A DNA stretch of 36,019 bases from Promicromonospora citrea. Lineage in GTDB: Bacteria; Actinomycetota; Actinomycetes; Actinomycetales; Cellulomonadaceae. Below the pieces are notes generated by a model. It saw only the letters and a program-made list of their open reading frames with translations. It was not told the DNA's origin and did not search any database. Below are positions 1-32,202 of this stretch, in pieces. The DNA lies in contig NZ_JABEMG010000036.1 of NCBI RefSeq assembly GCF_013004695.1, forward strand, positions 1 through 36,019, read 5' to 3'. A program made the position numbers and the translations under genes. Every line of letters starts with the position of its first letter. Position 1 is the stretch's first letter.

Positions 1-615
1 GGCCGTGCCGTCCTCCGTGCCGCCCGCCGCGAGCGTGGCGTCGGCCCCGGCCACCGCGGGGGCGTCGGCGCTCGCCTCCCCCGGCGTGGCGGACGGCTCA
101 GGGCTCTCGTCGGGCGGCGGGGCGGACGGCGCTCCCGCCGTCACCACGAGCACCGGCGCCGGCCGCTCGAGGTCGTCGTGCCCCGCGCCGTCCTCCGCGA
201 CCTCCGTCCAGGCGGCCTCGCCCTCGAGGCAGCGCTGCACGACGGGTAGGACGAGCGTCGCGCCCTCCTCGTCGGGCAGCCGGAGCGACAGCTCGACCTC
301 GGCGTGCTCGCCGTCGGGCAGCGGCTCGTCGGTGGTCCAGGTCAGCGCGTCCGCGGTCTGTTCGACGGCCCAGCGGTCCGTGTCCGCCGCGGTCACCTCG
401 CGCACGCCGTCGGGCAGGCGCAGGGACAGCGCGCGGGTGGCCGACCCCGCGCAGCCGTGCGGCACCTCGACCGTGAGTACGGCGACGGCGCCCGCGGCGG
501 TGGTCGACGGCGTGACGGTCACGTGGGCCGACGCCGGCCCGGCCCCGACGGCCACGAGGGCGGCGGCGGCCAGCCCGGACAGGGCCGCACGTCGGACGAC
601 GGTGGTGCTCCTCAT
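1..615 (-). CDS. YcnI-like (DUF1775) copper-binding exported protein, 3' end cut by window edge
   Basis: The visible part is 205 codons read leftward from an ATG at 613-615 and runs off the window. Residues 1-30 form a signal peptide (MRSTTVVRR, a hydrophobic stretch, then PASA) ending just before His-Val-Thr-Val, so the mature protein would start with histidine. The DUF1775/YcnI family is known to bind copper through that N-terminal His. The folded domain (about residues 31-160) contains two cysteines (in PHGCAG and QRCLEG) and conserved Trp residues. It is followed by a Pro/Ala/Glu-rich linker, in which the window ends. The family usually has a C-terminal membrane helix and sits near CopC/CopD genes, but both lie out of view. 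The divergent neighbour is a tautomerase 209 bases away. The family call is strong; the copper role is family knowledge. Confidence 0.85.
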   Translation of the reverse strand, partial: MRSTTVVRRAALSGLAAAALVAVGAGPASAHVTVTPSTTAAGAVAVLTVEVPHGCAGSATRALSLRLPDGVREVTAADTDRWAVEQTADALTWTTDEPLPDGEHAEVELSLRLPDEEGATLVLPVVQRCLEGEAAWTEVAEDGAGHDDLERPAPVLVVTAGAPSAPPPDESPEPSATPGEASADAPAVAGADATLAAGGTEDGTA

Positions 616-824
616 CGAACTCTCCGTCTCTGCGGTCTCCGACGGGCCGGAGACGGCCCGCTCACCCAATCAGCGGGCCGAACCGCTGTCAAGAATGTGA
701 ACTAGTGGGGTCCGAACCGTTTACTCCGCCCCGGCCCCCGCGTACGGTGGTTCACGTCACCGAACCAAGGTCGGCTCCGTGAACACGGACTGCGTCCGAC
801 CCGACCCCCCACCGGAGGGAAGAC

Positions 825-1049
825 ATGCCCAACATCACCGTCGAGCTGCTCCGCGGCCGCACGATCGAGCAGCGCCGCGAGTTCGCCAAGGCCGTGGCCG
901 ACAGCGCCGTCGAGATCCTGGGCGCCCGGCGCCAGGACGTCCGCATGGTCTTCACCGAGATCACCCCCGACATCGTCGCCAACGGCGGCGTGCTGGCCAG
1001 CGAGGACGAGAGCCGCGCCGGCGTGGTCGCGGCGCTCGCCGACGACTGA
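825..1049 (+). CDS. 4-oxalocrotonate tautomerase family protein, 74 aa
   Basis: This is a short tautomerase-fold protein of the usual family size (60-75 residues). Removal of the initiator Met leaves Pro as residue 1 (MPNITVELLRGRT), the catalytic base of the 4-OT superfamily. The segments RGRTIEQRREFAKAVADSA and RRQDVRMVFTEI match the helix and second strand of the family. The start follows a good ribosome site (GGAGGG, about 7 bases upstream). The substrate cannot be told from sequence; members isomerise 2-hydroxydienoates, and some have dehalogenase or MIF-like activity. It faces the long oxidase gene convergently and shares a terminator with it. It is not obviously part of the sugar operon. 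Confidence 0.88.
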   Translation: MPNITVELLRGRTIEQRREFAKAVADSAVEILGARRQDVRMVFTEITPDIVANGGVLASEDESRAGVVAALADD

Positions 1050-1126: not shown

Positions 1127-4100
1127 CTACTTCACCCGGAGCGTCACCCGGGTCTCCGCGGCCACCACGAGGTCGCTGCCGAGGTAGGACACCGTCACGG
1201 TGACGTCCTTGCCCTTCACCTGCGGCACCTCGAACCGGACGCGCCCGTCCTCGACGGTGCCGAGCACGGTCGGGCCGTCCTTCACCACGAGCCGCACCTG
1301 TCCCGTCACCGGGACGTCGTACGGCGCGGTGAGCGAGACGTCGACGACCGTCTTCTTGTCCTTCCCCTTGCCGCTGTTCGCGGCGGAGATCTCCATCGTG
1401 GCGACCACCTTCTCGACCACGACCCGCACCGTCGACGACGACGCCGCGTGGTCGCCGTCCCCGCCGTAGCGGAGCGTGAGGTCGTGCGCGCCCGGCGGCA
1501 GCGACCGGGCCGGCAGGACGATCGTGCCCCGCCCGTCCGCGATCGTCGCGGTGCCGAGCACCTCGGTGCCGTCCCGCAGCTCGACCTCGCCGGTGGCCGT
1601 GTCGGGCGACACGGCCAGCGAGACCGACCCCGCCGTCCCGTACACGACGGGCAGCGCGACACCAGCCACGGCCGTCGCCGTCGGCGACTTCACCGTGATC
1701 GTCACCGTGGCCACGGCGGAGCGGTCCTGCCCGTCGTCGGCGCGGTAGGTGAACACGTCCTTGCCGTTGAACCCGGCGTCGGGCGTGTAGGTGAACGAGC
1801 CGTCCGCCTCGAGGGTGACCGTGCCGTTGGCCGGCTGGGTCACCGCCGTCGCGGTGAGGACGTTGCCGTCCTCGTCGGTGTCGTTGGCCAGGACGCCGGG
1901 GGCCGGGAGCGCGAGCGGCTGACCGCCCACGGCCTGGTAGGCGTCGTTGCGCGCCACCGGCGCCGTGTTGACCGGCGGCTGCTCGGCCTCCTCGACGGTG
2001 ATCGTCACCGTCGTGGGGGCCGACGTCGCGGTGCCGTCGGACGCGCGGTAGGTGAACGTGTCCGTCCCGGAGAAGCCGGCGTCGGGCGTGTAGGTGAACG
2101 ACCCGTCCGCCGCGAGGGTGACCGCACCGTTGGCCGGCTGGGCGAGCCCCGTGGCCGTCAGGTCGTCGCCGTCCGCGTCGGTGTCGTTCGCCAGGAGGCC
2201 CGGCGCCTCGACCGACAGCGGCTCGTCCTCGACCGTTCCGTAGGCGTCGGCCGCGCCGACCGGCGCCGCGTTCACCGGCGGGCCCTCGGACAGCTCGGCG
2301 ACCTGCTCGGGCGTGAGCTCGTAGCCGAACATCCGGAACTCGTCGACGAGGCCGTCCCACCGGGCGTCCGGCCAGCTCGTCCCGCCGATCATGTTCGCCG
2401 TCGTGGACCCGTCCACGCCGACGTCACCGATGCTCACCGTGAAGTCGTCGCGCGTGGCCTGCAGCTCGCCGTCGAAGTAGATCTTGCCGACGGACCCGCT
2501 CTGGGTGAAGACCACGTGCGTCCACTCGTTCAGCGGCAGGTCGTTGCCCTGGCCGAGCACGAGACGTTCCTGGGCGCTGCCGGGCGTGCCCGGCGCCTTG
2601 AACGTCGCTGCGAAGCCGGTGGCCCCGCTGACCTGTGTGTTCGACTGCAGCAGGAAGAACGTGTCCGTGCTGCTGCCGATCTGCAGGAGCGGCACCCAGG
2701 TCGGCAGCGCGTCCGGCCGGGCCCAGAGCGAGACGCTGAACTGGTCGTCCATGCCCGCCTGGATGTCGTCGGGCAGCTCGACCTGGTTGCCGGAGCCCGA
2801 GGGGCCGCCGGGCAGGTTCACCGCCGCGCCGAACCGGCCGTCCTGCGTCCAGCCCGTCGCGCCGGAGAGCGTCGCCGCCCCGACCGAGCCGTCCAGGCCG
2901 GTGTTGGCCGCCGTGCTGCCCTCGCCCTCGTCGAAGGCGTAGTGGATGGGCGTGCCCTCGCCGGGCGGCGGCCGCTCGACCGTGTGCTCCACGGTGTGCG
3001 CGGAGTCGCGCCAGCCGTCGGCGGCCAGGAACCGCACCTCCACGTCGTGGTCGCCCGGCGAGAGCGCGACGCCGGTGAAGGTCACCGCGCCGTCGGTCAC
3101 GTCGGCCTGGCCACCCACGCGGGCGCCGTCGACCCACAGCTCCGCCACGCCGGCGGGCGCACCGCCGGACACCGCCTCGACCGCGGCGGAGACCGTCACC
3201 GGCTCGCCGAACGGCGACGGCGAGCCGGGCTCGACCGTGACCGTCGTGGTCGTGGCGACGGCGGTGCCGTCGGCGTACAGGGCCGCGACGTCGGCGTCGC
3301 CGAGCGCGGTGCTGTAGACACGCACGTCGTCCATGAGCCCGTCGTACGCCGGGTCGGGGAAGCCGTTGCGCCCCAGCCAGTTGTTCGACGTCGGCCCCAC
3401 GTCCGTCATGTCGATCGTGAGGTCGTCGCGCGACGCGACCGGCTCTCCGTCGAGGTAGAGCGTGCCCGTGGAGCCCTGGCGCGTGAACGCGACGTGGTTC
3501 CACTCGCCCGCCTCGACGTCCCGGGTCGGCGTGGCGTAGACCCGCTCCTGGAGGGCCGACCCCTTCGCCTTGAAGGTCGCCGCGAGGCCGGTGCCGCCGG
3601 GCGCGGCGTCGGTCTGCATCTGGAGCTGGAAGAAGCTGCCGGCGTCCCCGAGCCCGTCCCCGAGGTGGAACAGGCCGGTCCAGCCGGTCTTCGTGTCCGG
3701 CCGCACCCAGAACGAGGTCGTGAAGGCGTCCTCGCCCCGCAGCAGGTCGTCCGGTAGGTCGACGGCGTTGTCCGTGGCGCCGCCGGCCAGGTCGAGAGCG
3801 CCGCCGTGGACGCCGTCCTCGCTCCAGCCCGTCGCGCCTGTGAGCGTCGCCGCCCCGACGCCCGCGTCGGTGCCGCTGTTGCCCGCCCGGCTGCCCGTGC
3901 CCTCGTCGAAGGCGTAGTGCACCGGCACGTCGGAGGCGCCGGGGTCGGTCCCGGTGATCACGACGTCGTCGATCATGACGCCCGCGGCCGAGTCGCCGCC
4001 GGTGAGCGTCAGGTCGTGCGAGCGCGACTGCGCCGTGAACGTGCCGACGTACGTGCCGAACCTGGTGGTCGACGACAGGTCGGTCGGCGCGCTGAGCGTG

Positions 4101-6904
4101 GTCGACAGGTCGGCGACCGACAGGTCGGCCGTGCCGGGCGCCGTGCCCGACGACCGGCTGTCGCGTGCGTACCGCAGCGAGACGCGGTACTCGCGTCCCG
4201 GGTCGAGGCCCTTGACGGTGCGGGTCAGGCTGCCGTCGTCGCCCACCGCGAGGTGGTAGCCGGTCAGGCCGAGACCGCCCTGGCTCGACGCCGCGGCGCG
4301 GACGAGCTGGACCTCGCTGTCGACCTCCCACGGCGACATGCGGCCGTTGCCCGGCTCGACGTCCACCACGGCCGGCGGGTTGGCGGAGCGCCACTCGGCC
4401 GGGATCCGCGGGTACTCGAGCTGGTCGACGAGGTGCGGCGTGCGCACGTCCATCTCGACGGTCGGGTCGATCTGCACGATGTCGGCGACGGACGGCGTGC
4501 CGTCCTCGTCGAACACGAACAGCATGTAGGCCCCCGGCGGCGCCCAGGTGCCGTCGACCGGCGTCTCGATCGTCAGCGTGCCGCCGTCCTGCGCGAACGC
4601 CAGGTCCTGGAAGTTCTGGTCGTTGTTGAACCCGTGCGTCACCGAGCCGTTGCGGACCAGCGTGACCCGCGAGACGTCGACGTCGGCCTGCACGTCGAAG
4701 GTGCCGTCGTAACCGACCTTCTTCGGCACGCCCGTGACCTCCGGGCGCTCGGCGAGCTCCTCGCCGTCGAACAGGTAGGCCGGCGAGTAGAACTCGACGT
4801 CCGTGTAGTTGCGCGGGCCCGGCGTGCCGCCGCCGCCGACCATGACGCGGCCGTCGGGCAGGAGCAGCGCGGTCGAGTGGTAGAGGCGGGCGTGCTCGTA
4901 GGGCACGTCGACCTGCGTCCACTCCCCCGTCTCCGGGTCCCAGATCTCGGCCGTGGTGACGTAGCCACCGTTGCCGTTGTTGTCGCGCGAGCCGCCGGTG
5001 ACGATCACGTCGCCGTCGGGCAGCACCGTGGACGTCGCCCAGTGGCGCGCGTGCCGCATCGGCTCGGTCGCCTCGACCACCGGCGCGTCGGTGCCGCCGG
5101 TGATGTCGACGGTGAAGCCGGCGCGAGCGCCGTCGGGCCCGCCGCCGTTGGCCCACCAGCCACCGCCGACCTGCAGGATCTTGCCGGGGCGGTACATGGT
5201 CGCCGTCGACGTGGCGCCCACGGGGTTGCCGAGCGCACCCTGGTTCGCGACGTCGGAGGGCAGCGTGCCGCGCAGGGTGATCTCGCCGTCGCCCGAGGGG
5301 TCGAGCTCGAACATCTGCGTGCCGGTGATGGTGAAGACGTTGCCGTTGCCCGGCGCCACGAAGGCCCGCGGGTACCACCAGCGGTTCTCGTCCGGCCCGT
5401 TGCCGCCCCCGCCGTCGCCGTACGCGGCCGCGCTGGTGGCGCCCTCCAGGAGCTTCCAGGAGCTGCCCTCGTCCGGCGTGTAGAGCTCGGGCGTCAGCAC
5501 GCCCGGGCCGCCCGGGCCACCCTTGAGGCTGCCGCCCTGCACGACGACGGAGCCGTCCGGCAGGGTGGTGCCGGTCGGGTACCAGCGCGGGTAGTTCATC
5601 GGCGCCTCGGTGCGCAGGCCCTGGTTGGTGGTCCAGCTCGTGACGCCGATGGCGCCGTCGTTCGGCGCGTTGCCGCCCAGGCCGTCGTCACCGCCCACGG
5701 TCATCGTGGCGCGCCGGTGCGGCATCTGGACCTGCATGGAGCAGAACAGGTCGGTGTAGGTCGTGTTCGCCACGAGCCCCGACGTGACGTTGGCGGGCGT
5801 GCGCTCCTCGGCCGGGTCCCAGATGTCGATCTCCATCTGGCCGCCCTGGACCACGCACGAGTTGCCGAAGAAGTCGTACGGCGTGCCGTCGGTGCAGCCC
5901 GACGAGACGCTGCCGAAGGACTGGACCTTGCCGTCCGAGGTCAGCGCCGCGTTGATCGGCACCAGCGGCCACGGCGTCACGCCGCTCCACGCGCCCTGCT
6001 CCGCCTTGCTCGGCGGGGAGCAGTCGGCGGGCAGCAGCCCGGCCGCGTACGCGAGGCCGTTCTTCATCTGCGTGCGGATGGGCGCCTCGGCGTAGGCCGT
6101 CCCCTCGTGGCCCATGCCGGAGTACCACGACCGGCCCTCGTCGATCTCCTGGCACCAGGTGATCGGGTGGCTCGTGCCGTTGTGGCCCATGCCGTAGGAG
6201 GTCTCGTCCGCCTCGAGCAGCGTGCGGACGTTCGGGGCCGGGTTGACCAGCCAGTCGTACCACTCGTCGCTGCGCGTGAAGTCGTCCGGGAGCCCCTGGG
6301 TCAGCGGGTGCGAGGTGTCCTTGACCACGACCCGGCCCGGCCGTACGGCCGGGTCCTCGGGGTGGCCCTCGGACATCGCGCCGACGAGCCGGGCGTAGAA
6401 GGGGTTCACGTCATGCTCGCTCTGGCCCACGGACCAGCCGGCGTAGTGCATGCCCATGTAGCCGCCGCCGCCGCGGATGTAGCTCTCCAGGGCCGCGCGC
6501 TGGTTCACGTCGAACAGCACGCCACCGGTCTGCGCGAAGACGACGGCGTCCTTCGTCGCGAGGTTCTCGGTCGTGAACGCCGCGGCGTTCTCGGTCTCCT
6601 CGATCTCCACCGGCTGGTCGTACTCGGTGCCGAGCTGGTCCGCGAGGTCGCGCACGGCCTGCCGGGCCTGCACGTGGGACGCGTGGAAGTTGGGCTTGTA
6701 GAACAGCAGGACGCGCAGGACTCCGTCGTCCACGGAGCCGACGGCGGCCGCTGCGCTCTCGGCGGGTGCCGCCTGGGCGACGCCGGCGAGCGGCGAGCCG
6801 AGGAGCACGGCTGCCAGGAGGGCGGCGAGCCCGGCCCGGCGGCGTCCGGGTACACGGCGTCCGGGTAGATGGTGGCGCCGGTCAGGTCTGCGTAACAGGT
6901 TCAT
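1127..6904 (-). CDS. Secreted ThuA / copper-radical oxidase (galactose-oxidase type) / LamG / Ig multidomain protein, 1925 aa
   Basis: A twin-Arg-rich signal peptide covers residues 1-45. A ThuA domain (GATase1-like) lies at about 63-295, with HPLTQGLPDDF and WYSGMGHEG. Residues 310-815 are a kelch propeller plus DUF1929 C-terminal domain of the galactose/glyoxal oxidase class. Every radical-copper residue can be placed: Cys388 (LFCSM) and Tyr442 (PRWYPT) for the Cys-Tyr cofactor, Tyr675-His676 (RLYHS) and His757 (SVTHGFN). An unassigned beta region follows (about 840-985), then LamG 1 (995-1210), an Ig-like domain, LamG 2 (1319-1540), two tandem cadherin-like/Big_9 repeats (1543-1744) and two Ig-like domains. 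No LPXTG or C-terminal membrane helix is present, so it should be released. It follows the aldehyde dehydrogenase by 197 bases and may be read from the kdu operon or its own promoter. Expected chemistry is O2-dependent oxidation of an alcohol to an aldehyde plus H2O2; the substrate is unknown. Confidence 0.9.
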   Translation of the reverse strand: MNLLRRPDRRHHLPGRRVPGRRRAGLAALLAAVLLGSPLAGVAQAAPAESAAAAVGSVDDGVLRVLLFYKPNFHASHVQARQAVRDLADQLGTEYDQPVEIEETENAAAFTTENLATKDAVVFAQTGGVLFDVNQRAALESYIRGGGGYMGMHYAGWSVGQSEHDVNPFYARLVGAMSEGHPEDPAVRPGRVVVKDTSHPLTQGLPDDFTRSDEWYDWLVNPAPNVRTLLEADETSYGMGHNGTSHPITWCQEIDEGRSWYSGMGHEGTAYAEAPIRTQMKNGLAYAAGLLPADCSPPSKAEQGAWSGVTPWPLVPINAALTSDGKVQSFGSVSSGCTDGTPYDFFGNSCVVQGGQMEIDIWDPAEERTPANVTSGLVANTTYTDLFCSMQVQMPHRRATMTVGGDDGLGGNAPNDGAIGVTSWTTNQGLRTEAPMNYPRWYPTGTTLPDGSVVVQGGSLKGGPGGPGVLTPELYTPDEGSSWKLLEGATSAAAYGDGGGGNGPDENRWWYPRAFVAPGNGNVFTITGTQMFELDPSGDGEITLRGTLPSDVANQGALGNPVGATSTATMYRPGKILQVGGGWWANGGGPDGARAGFTVDITGGTDAPVVEATEPMRHARHWATSTVLPDGDVIVTGGSRDNNGNGGYVTTAEIWDPETGEWTQVDVPYEHARLYHSTALLLPDGRVMVGGGGTPGPRNYTDVEFYSPAYLFDGEELAERPEVTGVPKKVGYDGTFDVQADVDVSRVTLVRNGSVTHGFNNDQNFQDLAFAQDGGTLTIETPVDGTWAPPGAYMLFVFDEDGTPSVADIVQIDPTVEMDVRTPHLVDQLEYPRIPAEWRSANPPAVVDVEPGNGRMSPWEVDSEVQLVRAAASSQGGLGLTGYHLAVGDDGSLTRTVKGLDPGREYRVSLRYARDSRSSGTAPGTADLSVADLSTTLSAPTDLSSTTRFGTYVGTFTAQSRSHDLTLTGGDSAAGVMIDDVVITGTDPGASDVPVHYAFDEGTGSRAGNSGTDAGVGAATLTGATGWSEDGVHGGALDLAGGATDNAVDLPDDLLRGEDAFTTSFWVRPDTKTGWTGLFHLGDGLGDAGSFFQLQMQTDAAPGGTGLAATFKAKGSALQERVYATPTRDVEAGEWNHVAFTRQGSTGTLYLDGEPVASRDDLTIDMTDVGPTSNNWLGRNGFPDPAYDGLMDDVRVYSTALGDADVAALYADGTAVATTTTVTVEPGSPSPFGEPVTVSAAVEAVSGGAPAGVAELWVDGARVGGQADVTDGAVTFTGVALSPGDHDVEVRFLAADGWRDSAHTVEHTVERPPPGEGTPIHYAFDEGEGSTAANTGLDGSVGAATLSGATGWTQDGRFGAAVNLPGGPSGSGNQVELPDDIQAGMDDQFSVSLWARPDALPTWVPLLQIGSSTDTFFLLQSNTQVSGATGFAATFKAPGTPGSAQERLVLGQGNDLPLNEWTHVVFTQSGSVGKIYFDGELQATRDDFTVSIGDVGVDGSTTANMIGGTSWPDARWDGLVDEFRMFGYELTPEQVAELSEGPPVNAAPVGAADAYGTVEDEPLSVEAPGLLANDTDADGDDLTATGLAQPANGAVTLAADGSFTYTPDAGFSGTDTFTYRASDGTATSAPTTVTITVEEAEQPPVNTAPVARNDAYQAVGGQPLALPAPGVLANDTDEDGNVLTATAVTQPANGTVTLEADGSFTYTPDAGFNGKDVFTYRADDGQDRSAVATVTITVKSPTATAVAGVALPVVYGTAGSVSLAVSPDTATGEVELRDGTEVLGTATIADGRGTIVLPARSLPPGAHDLTLRYGGDGDHAASSSTVRVVVEKVVATMEISAANSGKGKDKKTVVDVSLTAPYDVPVTGQVRLVVKDGPTVLGTVEDGRVRFEVPQVKGKDVTVTVSYLGSDLVVAAETRVTLRVK
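1673..2278 (-). repeat. Two tandem cadherin-like (Big_9) coding repeats, 101 codons each
   Basis: Within the ThuA-oxidase gene, residues 1543-1643 and 1644-1744 are near-copies. Each starts PVN.APV and contains LANDTD.DG, QPANG.VTL and GSFTYTPDAGF. The pattern is a recent internal duplication typical of extended stalks in secreted proteins. Confidence 0.85.
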
Positions 6905-7078
6905 CGTTGATCCCTTGTCACAGGTGGGGGCACGGGGGGGTGGTGCTGGTGGTGCTCGGGTGGTGCGCCGGGCGCGCGGGCACGGCCCGGCCGGCCGATC
7001 CCCCGCCCCGAGGTCGGCCGACCGGACCTGCGCGCCCGGTGTCTTGCCTGTCGTCCTGCCTGTCGTCTCCTGTCAGAG

Positions 7079-7095
7079 CGGCGCCGGCGGCGCCG
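7079..7095. terminator. Small GC hairpin just after the aldehyde dehydrogenase stop
   Basis: Arms CGGCGCC (7079-7085) and GGCGCCG (7089-7095) flank a GGC loop six bases beyond the ALDH stop codon. It may attenuate read-through into the oxidase gene. The rest of the 197-base gap (6905-7101) holds three CCTGTCGT-like repeats near 7046-7076 and G-rich sequence, with no clear promoter. Confidence 0.4.
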
Positions 7096-7101
7096 CCGGG
7101 C

Positions 7102-8604
7102 TCATCGCAGCTCTGCGATGACCGTCTTGAGCTCCGTGTAGTCGTCGAGGCCGAACGAGCCGAGCTCGCGGCCCCAGCCGGACTGCTTGTAGCCGCCGCG
7201 CGGGAGCGTGACGTCGTCGGCGTGCCAGGTGTTCAGCCAGACCGTGCCGGCGCGCAGCCTGCTGCCGACCCGGTGGGCCGTGCTCAGGTCGCGCGACCAG
7301 ACGCCGGCGGCCAGGCCGTAGACCGTGTTGTTGGCGGCCGCGACGACCTCGTCCTCGCTGTCGAAGGGCACGGCCGTGATGACCGGGCCGAAGATCTCGT
7401 CGGTCTGCACGGCCATGTCCTCGGTGACGTCGGTGATGAGCGTCGGCGAGAAGAACCAGCCGCGGTCGGCCGCCGGGTCGGGGCTGCCCGCCGCGAGCGT
7501 CGCGCCGTCCGCCACCGCGCCGCGCACGTAGCCCATGACCTTCTCGTGCTGCTCCTGCGAGACGAGCGGGCCCATGGTCGTGGCCGGGTCGAACGCGTCG
7601 CCCACCCGGATCGCCTTGGCCGCGGCGGCCACGCCCTCGACCACCTCGTCGAACACCGCGCGCTGGACGTACAGGCGCGAGCCGTTGACGCAGCACTGGC
7701 CCTCGTTGAAGTACCCGGCCAGGGCGGCTCCGGCGATCGCGGCGTCGAGGTCGGCGTCCGCGAAGATGATGTTGGGCGCCTTGCCGCCGAGCTCGAGCGA
7801 GACCTTCTTGAGGTTGCGCGAGGCGCCGGCCGCGATCTTCTTGCCGACCTCGGTGCTGCCGGTGAACGCGACCTTGTCGACGCCGTCGTGGTCGACGAGC
7901 GCGGCGCCCGCGTCCCCGAAGCCCGGCAGCACGTTGACGACGCCGGCGGGCAGGCCCGCCTCGAGCAGGAGCTCGCCGAGCCGCAGCGCCGTCAGCGGCG
8001 TCTGCTCCGCGGGCTTGAGCACGACCGTGTTGCCCGCCGTGATCGACGGGATGATCTTGAACGCGGCCATGGTGAGCGGGAAGTTCCACGGCACGATGCC
8101 CGCGACGACGCCGATCGGCTCGCGCCGCGTGTAGGCGTGGAAGTCCTTGCCGGGCACCGACATCGGGATCGTCGTGCCCTCCATCTTCGTGGCCCAGCCG
8201 GCGAAGTAGCGGAACAGCTCGGCGGCGACGCCGACGTCGCCGCGCGCGGACGCGAGGCTCTTGCCGTTGTCCAGCGACTCGAGCTGCGCGAACTCCTCGG
8301 TGCGCTCCTCGATCATGTCGCCGACGCGCCACAGCAGGTGCGAGCGGTCCCGCGGGCTCATCCGCGACCACGGGGAGCCGGCCTCGAACGCGTTCCGGGC
8401 GGCGGTGACCGCGCGGTCGGCGTCGACCGCGGACGCCTGGGCGACCTCGGTCAGCACCTCCTCGGTCGCGGGGTTGACCGTCGCGAACGTCCGGCCGTCC
8501 TTCGCGTCCACCCGCTCGCCGTCGATCAGGAGCTGCTGAGGCGAGGAGAGGAACGCGGAGACGGCGGGCAGGAGCTGGGGCTTCTCGGGCAGGTTCTCGG
8601 ACAT
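7102..8604 (-). CDS. NAD(P)-dependent aldehyde dehydrogenase, 500 aa
   Basis: This is a full-length ALDH-superfamily enzyme that oxidises an aldehyde to a carboxylate in the cytosol. The oxyanion Asn174 is in PWNFP, the glycine motif FTGSTEVG is at 247-254, the general base Glu271 is in LELGGK, and the catalytic Cys305 is in GQCCVNGSR. It ends with the usual GGYKQSGWGRE segment. There is no signal peptide. The start has GGAAGG five bases upstream. Family resemblance is to betaine/lactaldehyde/general ALDHs, so the substrate is open. It is co-directional with a CUT2 importer 68 bases upstream and precedes the secreted copper-radical oxidase, so an aldehyde made by that oxidase is an attractive but unproven substrate. 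Confidence 0.93.
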   Translation of the reverse strand: MSENLPEKPQLLPAVSAFLSSPQQLLIDGERVDAKDGRTFATVNPATEEVLTEVAQASAVDADRAVTAARNAFEAGSPWSRMSPRDRSHLLWRVGDMIEERTEEFAQLESLDNGKSLASARGDVGVAAELFRYFAGWATKMEGTTIPMSVPGKDFHAYTRREPIGVVAGIVPWNFPLTMAAFKIIPSITAGNTVVLKPAEQTPLTALRLGELLLEAGLPAGVVNVLPGFGDAGAALVDHDGVDKVAFTGSTEVGKKIAAGASRNLKKVSLELGGKAPNIIFADADLDAAIAGAALAGYFNEGQCCVNGSRLYVQRAVFDEVVEGVAAAAKAIRVGDAFDPATTMGPLVSQEQHEKVMGYVRGAVADGATLAAGSPDPAADRGWFFSPTLITDVTEDMAVQTDEIFGPVITAVPFDSEDEVVAAANNTVYGLAAGVWSRDLSTAHRVGSRLRAGTVWLNTWHADDVTLPRGGYKQSGWGRELGSFGLDDYTELKTVIAELR

Positions 8605-8671: not shown

Positions 8672-9664
8672 CTACTTGATGACGAGCAGCTTCGACCGGT
8701 CGAGGGTGAGTGCGACGGCCGCGACGATGATCGCGCCGTAGAGGATCTGCTCGTAGGCCGAGGGCACGCCGACGATCGGCAGTCCCACGCGCAGCAGCGT
8801 GACGACGAGCGCGCCGGCGAGGCTGCGCCACACCGAGCCGTGGCCGCCCGTGATGGCGGTGCCGCCCACGACGATGGCCGCGACGGCCGGGAGGAGCAGG
8901 TTGTCGGCCATGGTCGGGCTCCCGCTGAAGTTCCGGGAGACCAGCATGACGGCCGCCAGCCCCGCGCACGCGCCCGAGAGGGTGAACGCGCCGACCTTGA
9001 CCAGGTCGACGGGCGAGCCGGCGAGACGGGCCGCCGACTCGGAGTACCCGATGGCGCGCACCCAGCTCCCGAGCGGTGTGAGGCCCAGGACGAGCGAGAC
9101 CACCCCGACGACGAGCAGCGCGACGACGAACGCCATCGGCAGCACGCCCGCGAGGTACAGCGTCAGCCAGTGCGTCGCGTCCCGGTCGGACAGCGGGATC
9201 GGCCCGGCGTCGGAGACCACGAGGGCGATCGCCGCGTAGATGCTCATGCCGCCGAGCGTCACGATGAAGGACGGGATGCGCAGCAGCACGTGGGCGACGC
9301 CCTGCAGCAGCCCGATCAGGGCCGTCGCCGCGACGACGGCGGCGAGCGTCACCGCGCCGAGGTCGGGCAGCCAGAGCGCGAACAGCACGGTGGCGAGCGA
9401 GCACAGCGCCGCGATCGACAGGTCGATGCCGCCGCACAGCACGACGACCGTCGCGCCCGCCGCGAGCACGACGAGCGGCGCGGCCGTGCGGACGGCGGCC
9501 GTGAGGCTGCTCAGCGTGAAGAACCCCGGGTCCACGACGGTGAGCGCGGCGAGCAGCACGACGAGCGCGATGAGCGGCATGAACGACGTCAGCCGGCGGC
9601 CCACGGTGGGCCGGGCGACGACCGGCGTGTCGGGAGCCGGCTGGGCGAGGACGGGCGTTGACAC
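8672..9664 (-). CDS. CUT2-family sugar ABC transporter permease (RbsC-like), second permease
   Basis: The 330-residue integral membrane protein belongs to the RbsC/XylH permease family, with about 8-10 hydrophobic segments from residue 30 onward. Family marks include VLCGGIDLSIAA, IPSFIVTLGGMSIYAAIAL and VVGGTAITGGHGSVWRSLAGAL, the last being the coupling region to the ATPase. It starts with GTG one base after the ATPase stop, with AAGGAG ten bases upstream inside the ATPase gene, so translation is coupled. It is the second of two different permeases in the operon, so the importer channel is probably a heterodimer. The ligand is probably a monosaccharide or small sugar acid; sequence alone does not say which. 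Confidence 0.92.
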   Translation of the reverse strand: MSTPVLAQPAPDTPVVARPTVGRRLTSFMPLIALVVLLAALTVVDPGFFTLSSLTAAVRTAAPLVVLAAGATVVVLCGGIDLSIAALCSLATVLFALWLPDLGAVTLAAVVAATALIGLLQGVAHVLLRIPSFIVTLGGMSIYAAIALVVSDAGPIPLSDRDATHWLTLYLAGVLPMAFVVALLVVGVVSLVLGLTPLGSWVRAIGYSESAARLAGSPVDLVKVGAFTLSGACAGLAAVMLVSRNFSGSPTMADNLLLPAVAAIVVGGTAITGGHGSVWRSLAGALVVTLLRVGLPIVGVPSAYEQILYGAIIVAAVALTLDRSKLLVIK

Positions 9665-9665
9665 G

Positions 9666-11221
<1,556 letters not shown>

Positions 11222-11225
<4 letters not shown>

Positions 11226-12244
11226 TTCGTCACCTGGTTCCTACGACGCTGGGGGATGACGGCGGCCGCGACGGCCGCGACGACGATGAGGCCCTGGACG
11301 CCGCCCTGCCAGTACGGGCTGACGCCGACCTGGACGAGCCCGTTGGTCAGGACGGTGACGAGCAGGACGCCGACGGTGGAGTGCAGGATGCCGCCGCGCC
11401 CGCCCGTGAGCAGGGTGCCGCCGACGACGGCGGCCGTGATGGCCGCGAAGTCGTAGCCCTTGCCCGCCTGGACCAGGCCCGCGCCGAGCTGGCTGGTGAC
11501 CATGACGCCCGCGAGCCCGTAGAACGCGCCCGCCAGGGTGAACACGGCCACCTTGTACGGGGCGACCCGCACGCCGGACAGCGCGAGCACCTCCTCGGCG
11601 CCGCCGATCGCGAACGCGTACCGGCCCAGCCGCGTGTACCGCTGCACGGCCCAGGCCACGAGCACGCAGGCCAGCGCGATCCACGTGAGGTGGGCGAGGC
11701 CGGCGAACCGCTCGACGGCCCAGCCCTCGAGCAGCGGGTCGGTGACGTTGGGCTGCACGCCCGCGAACAGGAGGGTCGCCACACCGAGGCCGACGGCGGA
11801 GACGCCGAGCGTCGCCATGAACGACGGCACCTTGAGCAGCACGAGCGCGAGCCCGCTGAGGCACCCGAGCGCGGCCGCCAGGCCCACGGCGACGACGATG
11901 CCGACGAGCCCCAGGTCGTTGTCGTTGCGGTTGTTGGCGACCAGGAGCGCCACGGTGATCGCGGACGCCCCCATGATCCCGGGGGCGGACAGGTCGATGG
12001 ACCCCGTCATGAGCACGAAGCTGATGCCGCAGGCCACCACGGCGAGCACCGCGGCGGCGTCGAGCACGTTCTGCACGTTGGAGACCGTCCGGAAGCCGGG
12101 GCTGAGCGCGGCGAAGACGCCGAACAGGACGACGAGCGCGATCGGCGGGCCCGCGTCCCGCAGGGACACCCCCCGCCGGGGCCGGGGGCGTCGGGCAGGG
12201 GGCACGACCTCGGTGTCGGCCTCGGCGGGGGATGTCATGGTCAC
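11222..12244 (-). CDS. CUT2-family sugar ABC transporter permease (RbsC-like), first permease
   Basis: The protein has about 340 residues, a charged cytosolic N-terminus rich in Pro/Arg (residues 1-25), and then the hydrophobic core of the RbsC family. Family marks are FVLMTGSIDLSAPGIMG, VPSFMATLGVSAVGLG and VVGGTLLTGGRGG, the EAA-like coupling loop. The GTG at 12242-12244 overlaps the binding-protein stop in a GTGA and is chosen over an in-frame ATG six bases later (12236-12238), because the nearest purine-rich site suits it better; the ATG remains possible. It pairs with the permease at 8672-9664 in a heteromeric importer. Confidence 0.92.
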
Positions 12245-13332
12245 GAGATCGCGCCCTGCGACCGGCTGAAGAGGTTGTCGCAGGCGAAGTCCTCGGCGCT
12301 CGTCTCCGGGGAGACGAAGTCGGCGACGTTGTCCTGCCTGATGAGGAACTGCTCCGCGAACCAGGCACGGTCCTCGTCGGCGATGTCCTCGGCGGCGAGC
12401 TCGCCCGTGGCGACGCAGTAGCCGATGGCCAGGCCGATGCCGCCCTGCCACGGGCCGTCGCTGGAGACGGTGGCCGTCATGGTGCCGTCCTCGATCGCGG
12501 TGAGCGCGTCGGGGACCGCGTCGATGCCGACCACGGCGACGTCGTCGCGCCCTGCCTGCTGCAGCGCCTCGAGCGCGCCGAGCGCCATGTCGTCGTTGGC
12601 CGCCCAGATGCCCTTGATGTCGTCGCCGTGCTTGGTGAGCAGGGTCTTGGTGACCTCGAGGGCCTCGGCGCGGGAGAAGTTCGCCGTCTGGTCGTCGAGC
12701 AGCTCGACGTCGGGGTTGGCCGCGAGCGACTCCTCGAGCCCGGCGAACCGGTCCTTGGCCGCGCCGGTGTCGAGGATGCCCTGGAGGGCGACGATGCCGC
12801 CGGACCCACCGATGGCCTCGGCCAGCGCGTCACCGATCTGCTTGCCGGACGCCACGCCGTCGTAGGTGATGTGGGAGAGCCAGTGGTCGTACTCGGTGAC
12901 GTCGAGGTCGGCCGGCTTGTTCCACTGGGTGACGAGGTAGGCGCCCGCCGCCTGCGCGCCCTCCACGATGGGCGGCGTGTCGGAGTCGCCGTTGGGCAGC
13001 ACGTTGAGCACGAGGCACTCCGTGTCGCCGGCCAGGAGCTGGCTGATCTGCTCCTGCTGGCGCGTGGAGTCGCCGTCGTAGGTGAGGCGCTCCTGGGTGA
13101 GGCCGACCTGCTCGGCGAAGGCGTCGCCGCCGTCGAGCCACGAGGCCTCGTAGGGGTTGGACTCGTTGCGGACCTGGCCCACGAGCTGCACGTCGGCCGG
13201 GTCGCAGGCGGCAGCGGCCTCGCCGCCGCCCGCGGCGCCGCCGCCGGCGGCCGTCTCGGTGCAGCCGGTGAGCACGGCGGCCGCCAGGGCCACGCCGAGG
13301 GCGGCGGCCGTGGGTCGAGAGGTGAACTTCAT
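12241..13332 (-). CDS. Sugar ABC transporter substrate-binding lipoprotein (periplasmic-binding-protein type I fold)
   Basis: The protein has 363 residues. The N-terminus MKFTSRPT, a hydrophobic run and the lipobox LTGC put the lipidated Cys at residue 24, so it is anchored outside the membrane. The body is a RbsB-like type I binding fold: VQLVGQVRNESNPYEASW near the start, IWAANDDMALGALEAL and VVGIDAVPDAL in the second lobe. A Gly/Ala linker follows the lipobox. It is the first gene of the transporter set, 57 bases after kduD, preceded by GAGGATCAACG. The 13 bases across its start are identical to those at the ThuA-oxidase start. The ligand is unknown; the operon suggests a sugar acid, uronate or sugar aldehyde. 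Confidence 0.93.
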   Translation of the reverse strand: MKFTSRPTAAALGVALAAAVLTGCTETAAGGGAAGGGEAAAACDPADVQLVGQVRNESNPYEASWLDGGDAFAEQVGLTQERLTYDGDSTRQQEQISQLLAGDTECLVLNVLPNGDSDTPPIVEGAQAAGAYLVTQWNKPADLDVTEYDHWLSHITYDGVASGKQIGDALAEAIGGSGGIVALQGILDTGAAKDRFAGLEESLAANPDVELLDDQTANFSRAEALEVTKTLLTKHGDDIKGIWAANDDMALGALEALQQAGRDDVAVVGIDAVPDALTAIEDGTMTATVSSDGPWQGGIGLAIGYCVATGELAAEDIADEDRAWFAEQFLIRQDNVADFVSPETSAEDFACDNLFSRSQGAIS

Positions 13333-13389: not shown

Positions 13390-14157
13390 TCAGCGGGCCA
13401 TCCAGCCTCCGTCGACGGCCAGGACGTGGCCGTTGACGTAGTCGGCGGCGGAGGAGCTGAGGAAGACGGCAGCTCCGGCGATGTCCTCGGGCGTACCCCA
13501 GCGGCCTGCCGGGATGCGCTCGAGGATCGAGCGTGAGCGGTCCGCGTCCTCGCGGAGCGCAGCGGTGTTGTCGGTGACCATGTAGCCGGGCGCGATGGCG
13601 TTGACCTGCACGCCGTGCGGGCCCCACTCGTTGGCCAGCGCCTTGGTCAGCCCGGCCACGGCGTGCTTGGAGGCGGCGTAGGACGCCACGCGCAGGCCGC
13701 CCTGGAAGGAGAGCAGGCTCGCGATGCTGACGACCTTGCCGTGGCCGCGCTCGACCATGGGCCGGCCGAGCTGCCGGGTGAGGAAGAAGAGGCCGTCGAG
13801 GTTGACGTCGAGCACGCGCCGCCAGGCGTCCCTGCCGACGTCGACCGCGTCCTCGCGGTCGATGACGCCCGCGTTGTTGACCAGCACGTCGACCTGACGG
13901 CCGGCGACCAGGTCGGCGCCGACCTGCTCGACGGCGTCCAGGTCGCCGACGTCGAGGTCGACGACGTCGACCTTCGCACCCGCCTCCGCGACGAGGTCGC
14001 GCGTCACGTCCTGCCGACCGGGACGGCCGAGCAGGACGACGTCGGCACCGGCGCGCGCCAGGCCGACGGCGACCGCCTGGCCGAGCCCGCGGCCCGCGCC
14101 CGTCACGGCGGCGCAGCGGCCGTGCAGGTCGAAGGGTGAGGGCGGCGCGATGGTCAC
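13390..14157 (-). CDS. kduD: 2-dehydro-3-deoxy-D-gluconate 5-dehydrogenase (KduD-type SDR)
   Basis: The 255-residue short-chain dehydrogenase has TGAGRGLG (19-26) for NAD(P) binding, NNAG (94-97), and the catalytic Ser147, Tyr160 and Lys164. The stretch SLLSFQGG plus PAGRWGTPEDIAG and the ending VDGGWMAR follow the enterobacterial KduD pattern closely, which is more specific than generic SDR motifs. KduD interconverts 2,5-diketo-3-deoxygluconate and 2-keto-3-deoxygluconate downstream of KduI. Its GTG start overlaps the kduI stop (GTGA), confirming the pair. KDG kinase and aldolase genes are not in this window. Confidence 0.93.
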   Translation of the reverse strand: MTIAPPSPFDLHGRCAAVTGAGRGLGQAVAVGLARAGADVVLLGRPGRQDVTRDLVAEAGAKVDVVDLDVGDLDAVEQVGADLVAGRQVDVLVNNAGVIDREDAVDVGRDAWRRVLDVNLDGLFFLTRQLGRPMVERGHGKVVSIASLLSFQGGLRVASYAASKHAVAGLTKALANEWGPHGVQVNAIAPGYMVTDNTAALREDADRSRSILERIPAGRWGTPEDIAGAAVFLSSSAADYVNGHVLAVDGGWMAR

Positions 14158-14972
14158 AGGTCCTCCAGGGCGACGGGGCTGAGGTCCGTGTAGACGTTGT
14201 TCTCCCCGGCCATCGCCCAGATGAAGGCGTACGAGCCGGTGCCTGCGCCCGCGTGGATCGACCACGGCGGCGAGATGACGGCCTCGCGGTTGCGCACCAC
14301 GAGGTGCCGCGTGGCGCCGGGCTCGCCCATGAGGTGGAACACCCGCGCGTCCTCGTCGAGGTCGACGTAGCAGTAGATCTCGGTGCGCCGGTCGTGCAGG
14401 TGGGGCGGCACGGTGTTCCAGACGGACCCGGGGGCGATGACGGTGACGCCGAGCTGGAGCACCGAGGACTTCACGTCCTGCCCCCACACGTACCGGTAGA
14501 GGCTGCGTTCGTTGGCCGTCTCGGCGGAGCCCAGCGCGACGGGCTCGACCTCGGCGTTGCGCAGCAGGCGCGTGGGGTAGGTCGCGTGCGCGGGCGCGGA
14601 GACGAAGTAGAAGGCGGCGTCGGCGCCGCCGAAGGAGACCTCGCTCCCCCGCCCGACGAAGAGGCCGTCGAGGTGGTCCAGCTCGAACTTCTCGTCGCCC
14701 ACGACGACGTGCCCCGTGCCGCCGACGTTGATGACGCCCAGCTCGCGACCCTCGAGGTGGGAGCCGGTGCCCAGCACCTCGGACCAGGCCGGCAGCTCCA
14801 GCTCGTCCGCACCGGGCACCGCCCCGCCGACGACGAGGCGGTCGTCGTGCGTGTACGTGCCGTGCACCTCGCCGGGCACGAAGAGGTCGGGGACGAGGAA
14901 GCTCTCCCGGAGGTCCGCGGTGGTGGCCGTCTCCGCGGAGGACGGAGATGTCGAGTATCGAACCTGGATCAC
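14154..14972 (-). CDS. kduI: 5-dehydro-4-deoxy-D-glucuronate isomerase
   Basis: The 272-residue bicupin enzyme isomerises 5-keto-4-deoxyuronate, from unsaturated uronides, to 2,5-diketo-3-deoxygluconate. E. coli KduI has also been reported to act on hexuronates. The zinc ligands are visible: His191, His193, Glu198 (HLHDRRTE) and His240 (SIHAG). Other family blocks are ELGVINVGGTG, APAHATYPT and VISPPWSIHAG. I chose the GTG at 14970-14972 because GAGGGG lies seven bases upstream; a TTG at 14987 would add five residues and would place the start inside that ribosome site. It is the first gene of the operon, about 44 bases from the predicted transcription start. Confidence 0.94.
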   Translation of the reverse strand: MIQVRYSTSPSSAETATTADLRESFLVPDLFVPGEVHGTYTHDDRLVVGGAVPGADELELPAWSEVLGTGSHLEGRELGVINVGGTGHVVVGDEKFELDHLDGLFVGRGSEVSFGGADAAFYFVSAPAHATYPTRLLRNAEVEPVALGSAETANERSLYRYVWGQDVKSSVLQLGVTVIAPGSVWNTVPPHLHDRRTEIYCYVDLDEDARVFHLMGEPGATRHLVVRNREAVISPPWSIHAGAGTGSYAFIWAMAGENNVYTDLSPVALEDL

Positions 14973-14988
14973 GAAGTCGCCCCTCAAG

Positions 14989-15052
14989 TTGTGAACTGTG
15001 TTCGGCTATGTGAACTGCCCCGACCCTAGACGTGACCTGGCTCACGGGTCAA
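14989..15052 (-). promoter_or_regulatory. kdu operon promoter with IclR-type direct-repeat operator
   Basis: Read leftward, TTGACC (15052-15047), an 18-base spacer and TAGGGT (15028-15023) make a near-consensus housekeeping promoter starting near 15016. Two repeats of AGTTCACAW (15016-15008 and 14997-14989), 19 bases apart or about two helical turns, cover the start site. A related AGTTCGCAT at 15082-15074 lies upstream. This fits repression by the divergent IclR protein; the sites are seen, the binding is inferred. Confidence 0.65.
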
Positions 15053-15073
15053 GGGGCGGAAACCTGTCCATGT

Positions 15074-15093
15074 ATGCGAACTCGCGGTAGTGT
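15074..15093 (+). promoter_or_regulatory. Possible iclR promoter -10 with overlapping operator-like box
   Basis: TAGTGT at 15088-15093 is a reasonable -10 for the rightward regulator gene. The -35 region is weak. The operator-like box ATGCGAACT (15074-15082) lies in the spacer, which would suit autoregulation. Confidence 0.4.
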
Positions 15094-15146
15094 CAGAATC
15101 ACCCGGGAGCGCCGACCGGGTCCCGGAGCAGCACCGAAGGAGAGTC

Positions 15147-15944
15147 ATGCAGCGTCACACGGAGCCTCGCGGTCAGTCGTCGAGCGAGGCCGGGCCGGTC
15201 AAGTCAGCGGCCCGCGCCCTCGACCTGCTGGACGACATCGCGGCCAACGGCCCCGGCACGCAGCTCCAGCTCTCGACGCGGCTCGGCATCCCCAAGAGCA
15301 GCCTGCACGCGCTGCTGCGCACCATGACCGACCGGGGGTGGCTCGAGACCGACCCGACCGGCAGCGTCTACCAGCTCGGCATCCACTCGCTCGTGGTCAG
15401 CTCGGCCTACCTGGACGGCGACCCCGTGCTGGCCCGCGCGACGGCGGTGCTCGACGAGGTCGCCGCCGCCACCGAGGAGACCGTGCACCTGGGCCGCCTC
15501 GACGGCGCCGACGTCATCTACACCGCCAAGCGGGAGTCGGTGCACCCGCTGCGCATGCACTCCGCCGTCGGGCGCCGGCTGCCCGCGTACGCGACGTCGC
15601 TGGGCCGCGCGATCCTCGCGGAGCTGCCGCCCGAGTCGCGCGCCGACCTGGTGCCGGAGCAGATCGCGGCGATCACCCCGCACACGACCACCGACAAGGA
15701 CAAGGTGCTCGAGATCATCGACCAGGCGGCCTACCAGGGCTACGCCACGGAGAGCGAGGAGTCGTGCCTCGGCGTGCGGTGCTTCGGCGTCGCGCTGCCG
15801 TTCCGGCGGGACGCCGTCGACGCCATGAGCGTCGCCGTGCCGATCAGCCGGCTGGGCGACGGGCGTCAGGACTTCATCATCGAGACGCTGCTCAGCGTGC
15901 GGTCCCGCCTCACGGCCCTCCAGGGCCACTCGCTGGTCCGCTGA
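15147..15944 (+). CDS. IclR-family transcriptional regulator (KdgR-like by context)
   Basis: The 265-residue protein has an N-terminal winged helix-turn-helix (about 18-80; KSAARALDLLDDI, LGIPKSSLHALLRTM, YQLGIH). An IclR effector-binding domain follows (about 95-255; GRAILAELPPE, ESCLGVRCFGVALPF, MSVAVPISRL). The ATG at 15147 follows AAGGAGAG, so longer upstream starts are unlikely. It is divergent from kduI. IclR-type KdgR proteins control kduI and kduD in enterobacteria with 2-keto-3-deoxygluconate as inducer; the same role is inferred here from position and from the repeats in the shared promoter. Confidence 0.93.
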   Translation: MQRHTEPRGQSSSEAGPVKSAARALDLLDDIAANGPGTQLQLSTRLGIPKSSLHALLRTMTDRGWLETDPTGSVYQLGIHSLVVSSAYLDGDPVLARATAVLDEVAAATEETVHLGRLDGADVIYTAKRESVHPLRMHSAVGRRLPAYATSLGRAILAELPPESRADLVPEQIAAITPHTTTDKDKVLEIIDQAAYQGYATESEESCLGVRCFGVALPFRRDAVDAMSVAVPISRLGDGRQDFIIETLLSVRSRLTALQGHSLVR

Positions 15945-17330: not shown

Positions 17331-17704
17331 CCGTCCGCCTCCGCGTCGTGCCTGCCGCCGGGGAGCCGGCCCACGACGTGGTCGCGGAGCCAGAGCTCGA
17401 CCCAGTCCGCGTCCAGCTCGTCGGACCGCACGGACAGCTCGATGGCCGTGCCGACGTGCGCGACGTCCGACCACGCGATGCGCGGCAGCCGCGAGGCCGG
17501 GACGGCGCCGCCGAACAGCCGCGTGAACAGCGTCGGGCCGACGAGGATCGCGCCGACCTGGGCCGCCTCGCCCGGCCGCGCCTCCTGGCCGTCGGGTCCG
17601 GTGAGCTCCAGGTCGTCGACGGCGCGCACGGGTTCGCCGTCCGCGTCCAGGACCTGCCGGCTGAGCAGGTGCAGCCGGGCGTCGACGAGGCGTTCGCGCG
17701 TCAC
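17327..17704 (-). CDS. PRC-barrel-like protein, 125 aa
   Basis: This is a paralogue-like partner of the next gene. VDARLHLLSRQVLDADGEPVRAVDDLEL is the PRC-barrel core; VGAILVGPTLFTRLF and PRIAWSDVAHVGTAIEL resemble the corresponding middle and WADVAEV segments of its neighbour. It ends with an acidic WVELWLRDHVVGRLPGG tail. The GTG start overlaps the transporter stop (GTGA) and its own stop overlaps the next ATG. No signal peptide is present, so it should be cytosolic, perhaps at the transporter's inner face (inference). Confidence 0.7.
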   Translation of the reverse strand: MTRERLVDARLHLLSRQVLDADGEPVRAVDDLELTGPDGQEARPGEAAQVGAILVGPTLFTRLFGGAVPASRLPRIAWSDVAHVGTAIELSVRSDELDADWVELWLRDHVVGRLPGGRHDAEADG

Positions 17705-20890: not shown

Positions 20891-21075
20891 GGTGCCTCCT
20901 GCTGCCTCGGGACGGCGTCCGGTGCCGGACGGTCCCAGGCTGGCACGGTGGTCGGCGACTCGCAGCGCCCGCGTCGACGCAGGTCCCGGCGCCGCGTTGG
21001 CGGTCACGAGAAGGTCGGGTTACGGTGCATGAGGAGTCAAGAAGTGGCGCCGGACCCGTACTCACGGAGGCCCCG

Positions 21076-31379: not shown

Positions 31380-31385
31380 GCGGTG

Positions 31386-31417: not shown

Positions 31418-31424
31418 GTGGCGA

Positions 31425-32181: not shown

Positions 32182-32202
32182 GCCTCTGCCTCTCGATATA
32201 GT

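Follow-up and report, generated by a model that had tools for sequence, protein, structure and literature searches.

What a ThuA domain and a copper radical oxidase (CRO) do together in one polypeptide is the question raised by contig NZ_JABEMG010000036.1 of Promicromonospora citrea, of which positions 1 to 36,019 (the window) were analysed and which encodes a ThuA-CRO fusion protein with LamG and cadherin/Ig modules. To our knowledge, a role has been assigned to few bacterial copper radical oxidases. The gene context points strongly to the ThuA-CRO being a member of a kdu catabolic regulon, a conclusion that is held with high confidence. With more reserve, the secreted protein is regarded as the probable entry enzyme in a sugar-catabolic regulon that depends on copper, its oxidation product feeding the kdu pathway; for this the gene linkage is strong, while we infer the substrate, the elimination step and the chemistry of the ThuA domain.

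Linkage of the ThuA-CRO gene to kdu genes

In the window, the kduI, kduD, sugar importer and aldehyde dehydrogenase (ALDH) genes lie upstream of the ThuA-CRO gene on the same strand, and an IclR-family regulator gene is divergent from kduI (Table 1). The gaps in the operon range from -4 to 67 bases, with 197 bases between the ALDH and ThuA-CRO genes (permease 1 start at 12238); a promoter and terminator scan of positions 6500-7300 found nothing. The operon KduI carries the motif PHLHDRR...SIHAG in an alignment to 1ywk, the residues of which we take to bind metal.

A scan of genome contigs gave 77 loci. Those used were L038-L103 (66 loci, with the CRO present in 63); L104-L114 were dropped, since they matched only the C-terminal part, from residue 1439. 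The kduI or binding-protein gene was found in 61 of the 63 ThuA-CRO loci; L065, the contig of which is truncated, retains ALDH, Eda and KdgK, and L073 is a second ThuA-CRO copy without the operon. A same-strand ALDH gene was located within 5 kb upstream of the ThuA-CRO gene in 58/63 loci, and Eda and KdgK were both encoded between the two in 29/63. In L068 an opposite-strand gene and the IclR gene separate ALDH from ThuA-CRO. Counted anywhere in the 66 loci, KduD, RbsB and ALDH were each present in 61, KduI, RbsA and each permease in 60, the tautomerase in 51, CopC-CopD in 39, IclR in 37, YcnI in 34, Eda in 32 and KdgK in 31, some of the absences falling at locus ends. Eda was confirmed by Pfam in L055 and read from sequence in the other loci; for the locus kinase (KdgK) the best model was KHG/KDPG aldolase/sugar kinase, at a score under its cut-off. 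Inside the window, KdgK, Eda and CopC-CopD gave no tblastn match. Relatives of KdgK (70%) and Eda (55%) are encoded side by side on another contig of the window genome, and the route to pyruvate and glyceraldehyde-3-phosphate can therefore be completed.

Co-occurrence was examined in 150 genomes of the family. The genomes with ThuA-CRO (at least 86% identity) and those with KduI of at least 79% identity were one and the same set of 17, the two genes lying 7.3-7.6 kb from each other (Fisher p 9e-23, with no correction for kinship). Other KduI proteins in the 150 genomes were at most 56% identical to the operon KduI; an 88% KduI piece in G074 proved to be the other end of the same split gene, and in the window genome the operon copy was the only KduI.

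Two conserved 17-mers around a TTGAC element were present in the IclR-kduI gap (31 sequences). A weight matrix was built from these gap sites alone and then run on all loci with a threshold of 12. In 47/63 loci the motif occurred upstream of the ThuA domain at a distance of 60-450 bases, against a background of 0.010 per kb, or about 0.004 per region, and 3/1260 shuffles. At a threshold of 10, at least one site was found in 48/63 loci and two distinct sites in 40/63, the two being spaced 28-31 bp apart in 39 of the 40 and 62 bp apart in one. Sites were present upstream of ThuA-CRO in L068 and L073 too, where the gene does not directly follow ALDH, and upstream of 20/51 tautomerase genes. The IclR protein presumably binds these putative sites.

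Copper-related genes were frequent neighbours, with CopC-CopD within 5 kb downstream of ThuA-CRO on the same strand in 37/63 loci and YcnI within 4 kb downstream in 30/63; Pfam matches in L040 bore out the CopC and CopD assignments. These neighbours are consistent with the ThuA-CRO as a copper enzyme, which does not in itself prove that they deliver its copper.

Assignment and distribution of the oxidase

The sequence-only reading of this gene had placed ThuA and a CRO in one chain, followed by two LamG domains and cadherin/Ig repeats. Pfam analysis bore this out, with matches to ThuA (PF06283), early-set, Kelch and LamG families. The ThuA match was full-length (profile positions 1-209 of 209; 170 bits, cut-off 33.4), Glyoxal_oxid_N scored 38.6 bits against a cut-off of 37.5, Kelch motifs were matched too, and GO-like_E_set at residues 720-812 scored 76.1 bits against 25. 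The C-terminal matches were Laminin_G_3 (two), Big_9/Cadherin_5 (two) and Big_3_5 (one). A chance open reading frame (ORF) in high-GC DNA was ruled out by orthologs across many genera.

When phmmer was run against Protein Data Bank (PDB) sequences, residues 296-812 aligned with galactose oxidases (best 9g8h, E 1e-38). The alignment put C388, Y442, Y675-H676 and H757 onto C228, Y272, Y495-H496 and H581 of galactose oxidase (GOase), where we assume the usual numbering for these residues and for Trp290. These are the five cofactor residues that the sequence-only reading had named, and they were conserved in the orthologs: in the window protein and 61 orthologs, C388 and Y442 were kept in 61/62 rows and Y675, H676 and H757 in 62/62. 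The sole row without C388 and Y442 is L078, the reading frame of which is broken there; the alignment omits L096 and L100 (split reading frame in ORF picking) and L101-L103 (no CRO). A wider alignment of the window protein with 29 distant CRO relatives, a part of the matches of a wider scan, kept the Cys in 27 of 30 rows, each Tyr in 28 and each His in 30.

An AlphaFold2 model of residues 60-1030 (39 sequences, pLDDT 76, pTM 0.71) was compared by Foldseek. In agreement with the propeller proposed earlier, the predicted fold matched galactose oxidases (E down to 1.4e-32) and GlxA, as well as ThuA-like 4jqs (E 5.6e-13). Alignments A1 and A2 comprised 38 and 37 orthologs, respectively. For a model of residues 816-1541 the top Foldseek match was AbnA arabinanase; many further rows were generic lectin folds and denote the fold class only, among them binding domains of clostridial neurotoxins, the global fit of which was poor. 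With its Cys-Tyr pair, second Tyr, two His, kelch propeller and early-set domain, the protein has an apparently complete set of AA5 CRO features, as judged from sequence. An inactive propeller is disfavoured because the five cofactor residues are kept. The GlxA equivalog NF052501 gave 133 bits, below its cut-off of 800.

The ThuA-CRO fusion is widespread in actinobacteria and not unique to the window. Its hosts include Promicromonospora, Myceligenerans, Isoptericola, Nocardioides, Kribbella, Cellulomonas, Blastococcus, Catellatospora, Actinoplanes and Asanoa, and the best segment match came from Promicromonospora thailandica (91%). Among the 61 orthologs, the ThuA, propeller and LamG parts were better conserved than the C-terminal repeats; 40 were longer than 1700 aa, and the 21 of 1700 aa or less (20 intact and the frame-broken L078) mostly end after LamG2. 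The ThuA-CRO gene at G111:C1:1737946-1740245 is split over two frames, either by a broken frame or by a sequencing error, and L078 is affected likewise.

Three loci carried a close ThuA domain in other company. L101 and L102 (81% and 78%) had LamG sequence and no CRO match, as confirmed by Pfam for L101, and in L103 (9842-11143) the ThuA domain (78%) was fused to AbfB, presumably a CBM42-type domain, instead of the CRO. The nearest CRO relatives found that lack ThuA were L148-L150 (43-47% identity), which showed no ThuA or kdu match within 13-18 kb; an ALDH (38-39%) was present in L148 and L149, the latter also having a weak CopC-like match. In 396 phylum-wide genomes there was no further ThuA-CRO-like CRO above 47% and no KduI above 50% (E limits 1e-20 and 1e-40).

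The component families are known and their combination is new. Among the matches listed in the open-licence literature, including those on galactose or glyoxal oxidase in combination with ThuA or KduI, no description of the fusion or regulon was found. The word ThuA was absent from the consulted portions of the main text of PMC11267884, and those of the GlxA paper PMC3543389 made no mention of ThuA, Nocardioides, Kribbella, Cellulomonas or Catellatospora.

A proposed route and its alternatives

In the proposed route, the LamG modules would hold a glycan while the CRO would oxidise a primary alcohol (probably the C6-OH of a hexosyl residue) to an aldehyde, with formation of H2O2, the reaction for which the CRO family is known. 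The aldehyde sugar would lose O-4 by beta-elimination, perhaps helped by ThuA, and be taken up by the ATP-binding cassette (ABC) importer. ALDH would then oxidise the imported aldehyde to the uronate level, giving after elimination an unsaturated uronate, which would become 5-keto-4-deoxyuronate, the KduI substrate, slowly unaided or with KduF. Finally, KduI, KduD, KdgK and Eda would turn this compound into pyruvate and glyceraldehyde-3-phosphate. Both the spontaneous (slow) and the KduF-dependent conversion, together with the kdu pathway enzymes, are described in the accessible part of PMC6353982, and that of PMC3388858 describes a galactoside 6-aldehyde giving an alpha,beta-unsaturated aldehyde through chemical, base-catalysed beta-elimination of O-4. 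With elimination placed before ALDH, the presence of KduI, KduD, KdgK, Eda and ALDH is accounted for and no dehydratase is missing.

A role for ThuA in the elimination is put forward tentatively: as a lyase at the aldehyde level it would act on the C6-aldehyde and yield an unsaturated dialdose for import, ALDH and KduI-KduD. That ThuA acts on oxidised sugars in some way is likely, because it is also fused to a glucose/sorbosone dehydrogenase (GSDH), and once in addition to a 3-keto-disaccharide hydrolase domain. These fusions are found in two other large ThuA proteins of the window genome, L115 and L116 (G000:C69 and C255), one with the layout ThuA-GSDH-PKD-CBM6 and one with ThuA, F5/8, GSDH, PKD and 3-keto-disaccharide hydrolase domains. 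The GSDH partner is presumably of the pyrroloquinoline quinone (PQQ)-type family. In the literature, ThuA proteins have been linked to keto-sugar metabolism. The suggestion that ThuA and CRO carry out paired carbohydrate chemistry at the cell exterior is plausible and is strengthened by these proteins; the decisive context, the kdu operon, lies outside the single gene on which it was based.

Of the alternatives, the one that survives best holds that the kdu operon burns uronates that lyases with genes elsewhere release from pectin or another polymer of uronic acids, and that the ThuA-CRO is an accessory enzyme oxidising galactose or arabinose side chains and thereby loosening that polymer, co-induced with the operon and not consecutive to it. 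It is considered doubtful. Evidence for the proposed route comes from GH88/105 enzymes, which release the usual KduI precursor: GH88/105 was over cut-off in none of the 17 ThuA-CRO genomes (8 had weak matches under it), compared to 17/27 relatives with ordinary KduI, in 12 of which it lay within 2.2 kb of kduI (p 1.5e-5; the genomes are related, so that p values overstate their independence). The 27 controls were hand-picked from 54 family genomes with any KduI match and no ThuA-CRO. The same contrast was seen within genus g21, where G042, G116 and G122 had the ThuA-CRO and no GH88/105 over cut-off, and G021, G058, G084 and G140 had ordinary KduI with GH88/105 nearby; G110, G132 and G148 fell outside the control sample. 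PL22 was found in 0/17, so that neither GH88/105 over cut-off nor PL22, one of which marks a pectin- or glycosaminoglycan-type kdu system, was present in the ThuA-CRO genomes.

PL1 pectate lyase, over cut-off in 13/17 of these genomes, favours the accessory role, as do the likeness of LamG2 to AbnA arabinanase domain 4 and the AbfB domain of the close ThuA relative L103, which hint at an arabinose-type substrate. PL1 was not found in the window genome, G031, G074 or G111, and the window genome had no match to PL1, GH88/105 or PL22 (other lyase families were not searched). Furthermore, the importer is of the monosaccharide type, ALDH is present in 61/66 loci, and none of the four protein clusters shared by at least 5 of the 66 loci was recognisable as a polysaccharide lyase or hydrolase: they were CopC-CopD (32 loci), a kinase of the PfkB type (21), the tautomerase (10) and a regulator-like protein of 951 aa (5). 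Clusters were judged by sequence and partly by Pfam, from 10-kb flanks at E 1e-25 on our own ORF picks, and divergent or short genes may be missed.

A second alternative dispenses with elimination: the CRO would form a hexodialdose, ALDH would oxidise it to galacturonate or glucuronate, and KduI and KduD would act on these directly. This agrees with the facilitation of galacturonate and glucuronate breakdown by E. coli KduI and with the formation of uronic acid in galactose oxidase reactions, as given in the consulted parts of PMC3578941 and PMC3388858, respectively. It is nevertheless distinctly unlikely, as KdgK and Eda, encoded after ALDH in 29/63 loci, depend on a 2-keto-3-deoxy sugar acid. 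The gap could be closed by a galacturonate dehydratase (PMC6353982, seen in part); none was recognised among the shared clusters, although no dedicated search was made. A third alternative is that the ThuA-CRO serves to modify the surface or to supply H2O2, with kdu proximity reflecting a shared niche, as the role of its bacterial relative GlxA in Streptomyces development (PMC3543389, in part) and the operon-free L073 might suggest. This is very improbable, given that in the family sample the ThuA-CRO and a distinct KduI subfamily are found in exactly matching sets of genomes, that the linkage holds in 61/63 loci and that motif sites recur, L068 and L073 included.

Several observations weigh against the ThuA-CRO as entry enzyme of the regulon. 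ALDH is not upstream in 5/63 loci: in L055, L081, L083 and L100 the kdu genes (53-69% identity) are on the other side of ThuA-CRO, and L073 has none. No motif was found upstream of ThuA-CRO in 16/63 loci, namely the window's near relatives L038-L043, L052, L063, L064, L076, L085 and L096, together with L045, L049, L080 and L100, and no motif above 11.2 was found in the 12.9-kb kdgK-eda stretch of the window genome. YcnI and CopC-CopD may serve general copper supply. As to GH88/105, 10/27 control genomes with ordinary KduI likewise lack it, and G006, G087, G111 and G123 hold ordinary KduI (48-49%) beside the operon copy with no GH88/105 over cut-off, so its absence is not tied to the operon KduI alone; the PL1 genes make lyase products possible in most ThuA-CRO genomes. 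GOase specificity positions appear partly lost, with Leu460 at the Trp290 position in the phmmer alignment (L 53, V 4, S 3, I 1 and one gap among 62 rows); the stacking Trp of AA5_2 is therefore absent and galactose is not claimed as a certain substrate. Finally, the elimination in the accessible part of PMC3388858 is chemical and favoured by heat and alkaline pH, so a catalyst would be needed near neutral pH, and ThuA as that catalyst is a guess.

If ThuA is indeed the lyase of the route, oxidation followed by elimination would be the counterpart, for neutral sugars, of polysaccharide lyase action on uronic acids, and ThuA domains would share a catabolic function with bacterial copper radical oxidases. 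If the proposed route is true, uronate catabolism in actinobacteria would have an entry that depends on copper, and fusions of ThuA to oxidative enzymes (CRO, GSDH) would form a testable class. Through the linked genes, operator-like site, importer and downstream enzymes, the ThuA-CRO substrate is traceable from both ends.

Neighbouring genes and comparison with known systems

Table 1. Features of the window around the ThuA-CRO gene, in order of position.
Feature	Position	Strand	Basis
YcnI-like protein (DUF1775), runs off window end	1-669	-	
Weak operator-like site between tautomerase and YcnI genes	749-765	+	score 11.9, below threshold 12
Small tautomerase (PF01361), Met-Pro N-terminus, convergent to ThuA-CRO gene	825-1049	+	
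ThuA-CRO-LamG-cadherin/Ig protein, P0001, 1925 aa	1127-6904	-	ORF and Pfam
Cadherin-like/Big_9 repeats and Big_3_5 domain	1415-2272	-	Pfam
LamG domain 2, residues about 1320-1540, resembles AbnA arabinanase domain 4 (5hon)	2285-2947	-	Pfam, PDB sequence and fold search
LamG domain 1 (PF13385), residues 1044-1207	3284-3775	-	Pfam
Beta-rich module, residues 816-1030, no Pfam family over cut-off	3815-4459	-	Pfam, structure model
Galactose-oxidase-like early-set domain (PF09118), residues 720-812	4469-4747	-	Pfam
His757 (GOase His581 position)	4634-4636	-	alignments
CRO kelch propeller, residues about 303-718	4751-5998	-	Pfam, PDB sequence search, fold match
Tyr675-His676 (GOase Tyr495-His496 positions)	4877-4882	-	alignments
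Tyr442 (GOase Tyr272 position)	5579-5581	-	alignments
Cys388 (GOase Cys228 position, thioether partner)	5741-5743	-	alignments
ThuA domain (PF06283), residues 64-287	6044-6715	-	Pfam; fold match to ThuA-like 4jqs
Probable N-terminal export signal, residues 1-45, cleavage after AQA	6770-6904	-	read by eye
ALDH (PF00171), 500 aa	7102-8604	-	under cut-off of all 25 NCBIfam models shown
Ribose-type ABC permease 2 (PF02653)	8672-9664	-	Pfam
Ribose-type ABC ATPase (RbsA/AraG-like)	9666-11225	-	profile searches
Ribose-type ABC permease 1 (PF02653), start read at 12238	11222-12238	-	
Importer's sugar-binding protein (PF13407)	12241-13332	-	profile searches
KduD, 2-dehydro-3-deoxy-D-gluconate 5-dehydrogenase	13390-14157	-	TIGR01832, 341.4 > 338.85, narrow
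KduI, 5-dehydro-4-deoxy-D-glucuronate isomerase	14154-14987	-	NF002091, 365.4 bits > 250
Putative operator site near kduI, 17-mer	15000-15016	-	score 29.8
Putative operator site between IclR gene and kduI, 17-mer	15066-15082	-	score 28.1
IclR-family regulator, similar to KdgR among others	15090-15944	+	no equivalog cut-off reached

The tautomerase gene, present in 51/66 loci, was near the 3' end of ThuA-CRO in 39 and near the IclR gene in 12, and a pathway enol is a possible substrate of its product. Elsewhere in the window were an Nramp-type metal transporter (17701-19062, minus strand), a PAS-ANTAR regulator (20869-21813, plus), a short-chain dehydrogenase that may be frame-broken, its best match ending at residue 139 of 326 (31228-32208, minus), and a DDE transposase (PF13701) with a match spanning about 250 of 435 profile positions (34360-35313, plus).

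The ThuA-CRO resembles the AA5 galactose oxidases (1gof, 9g43, 5c86) in its propeller, early-set domain and five cofactor residues; the identity in fold alignments was 20-24%. It differs from them in its N-terminal ThuA domain, its linkage to kdu genes and the Leu at the Trp290 position. Within the ThuA-CRO clade, RWWYPR (508-513), W584 and N586 were invariant apart from one gap; W584 and N586 were not seen in the 29 distant CRO relatives. According to the consulted part of PMC11267884, some AA5 enzymes, bacterial ones included, lie outside the two original subfamilies. GlxA of Streptomyces (4unm, NF052501) is a bacterial CRO that the ThuA-CRO matches in sequence and fold. As described in the accessible part of PMC3543389, GlxA is a development protein encoded beside the cellulose-synthase-like gene cslA, a setting unlike that of the ThuA-CRO.

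Fusion to another carbohydrate domain has a parallel in a Burkholderia pseudomallei AA5 oxidase joined to an inactive CE3 domain, compared here by its title as cited in PMC11267884; the partner there is CE3 and not ThuA. Closer in layout are the ThuA-GSDH proteins L115 and L116, which, like the ThuA-CRO, unite ThuA, a sugar-oxidising module and sugar-binding modules in one chain, the oxidising partner being a glucose/sorbosone dehydrogenase instead of a copper radical oxidase. With the pectin-type kdu pathway (KduI, KduD, KdgK, KdgA/Eda), the ThuA-CRO operon shares the cytoplasmic enzymes and an IclR-family regulator; unlike that pathway, it has its own KduI subfamily and comes with ALDH and the ThuA-CRO in place of a GH88/105 over cut-off or PL22.

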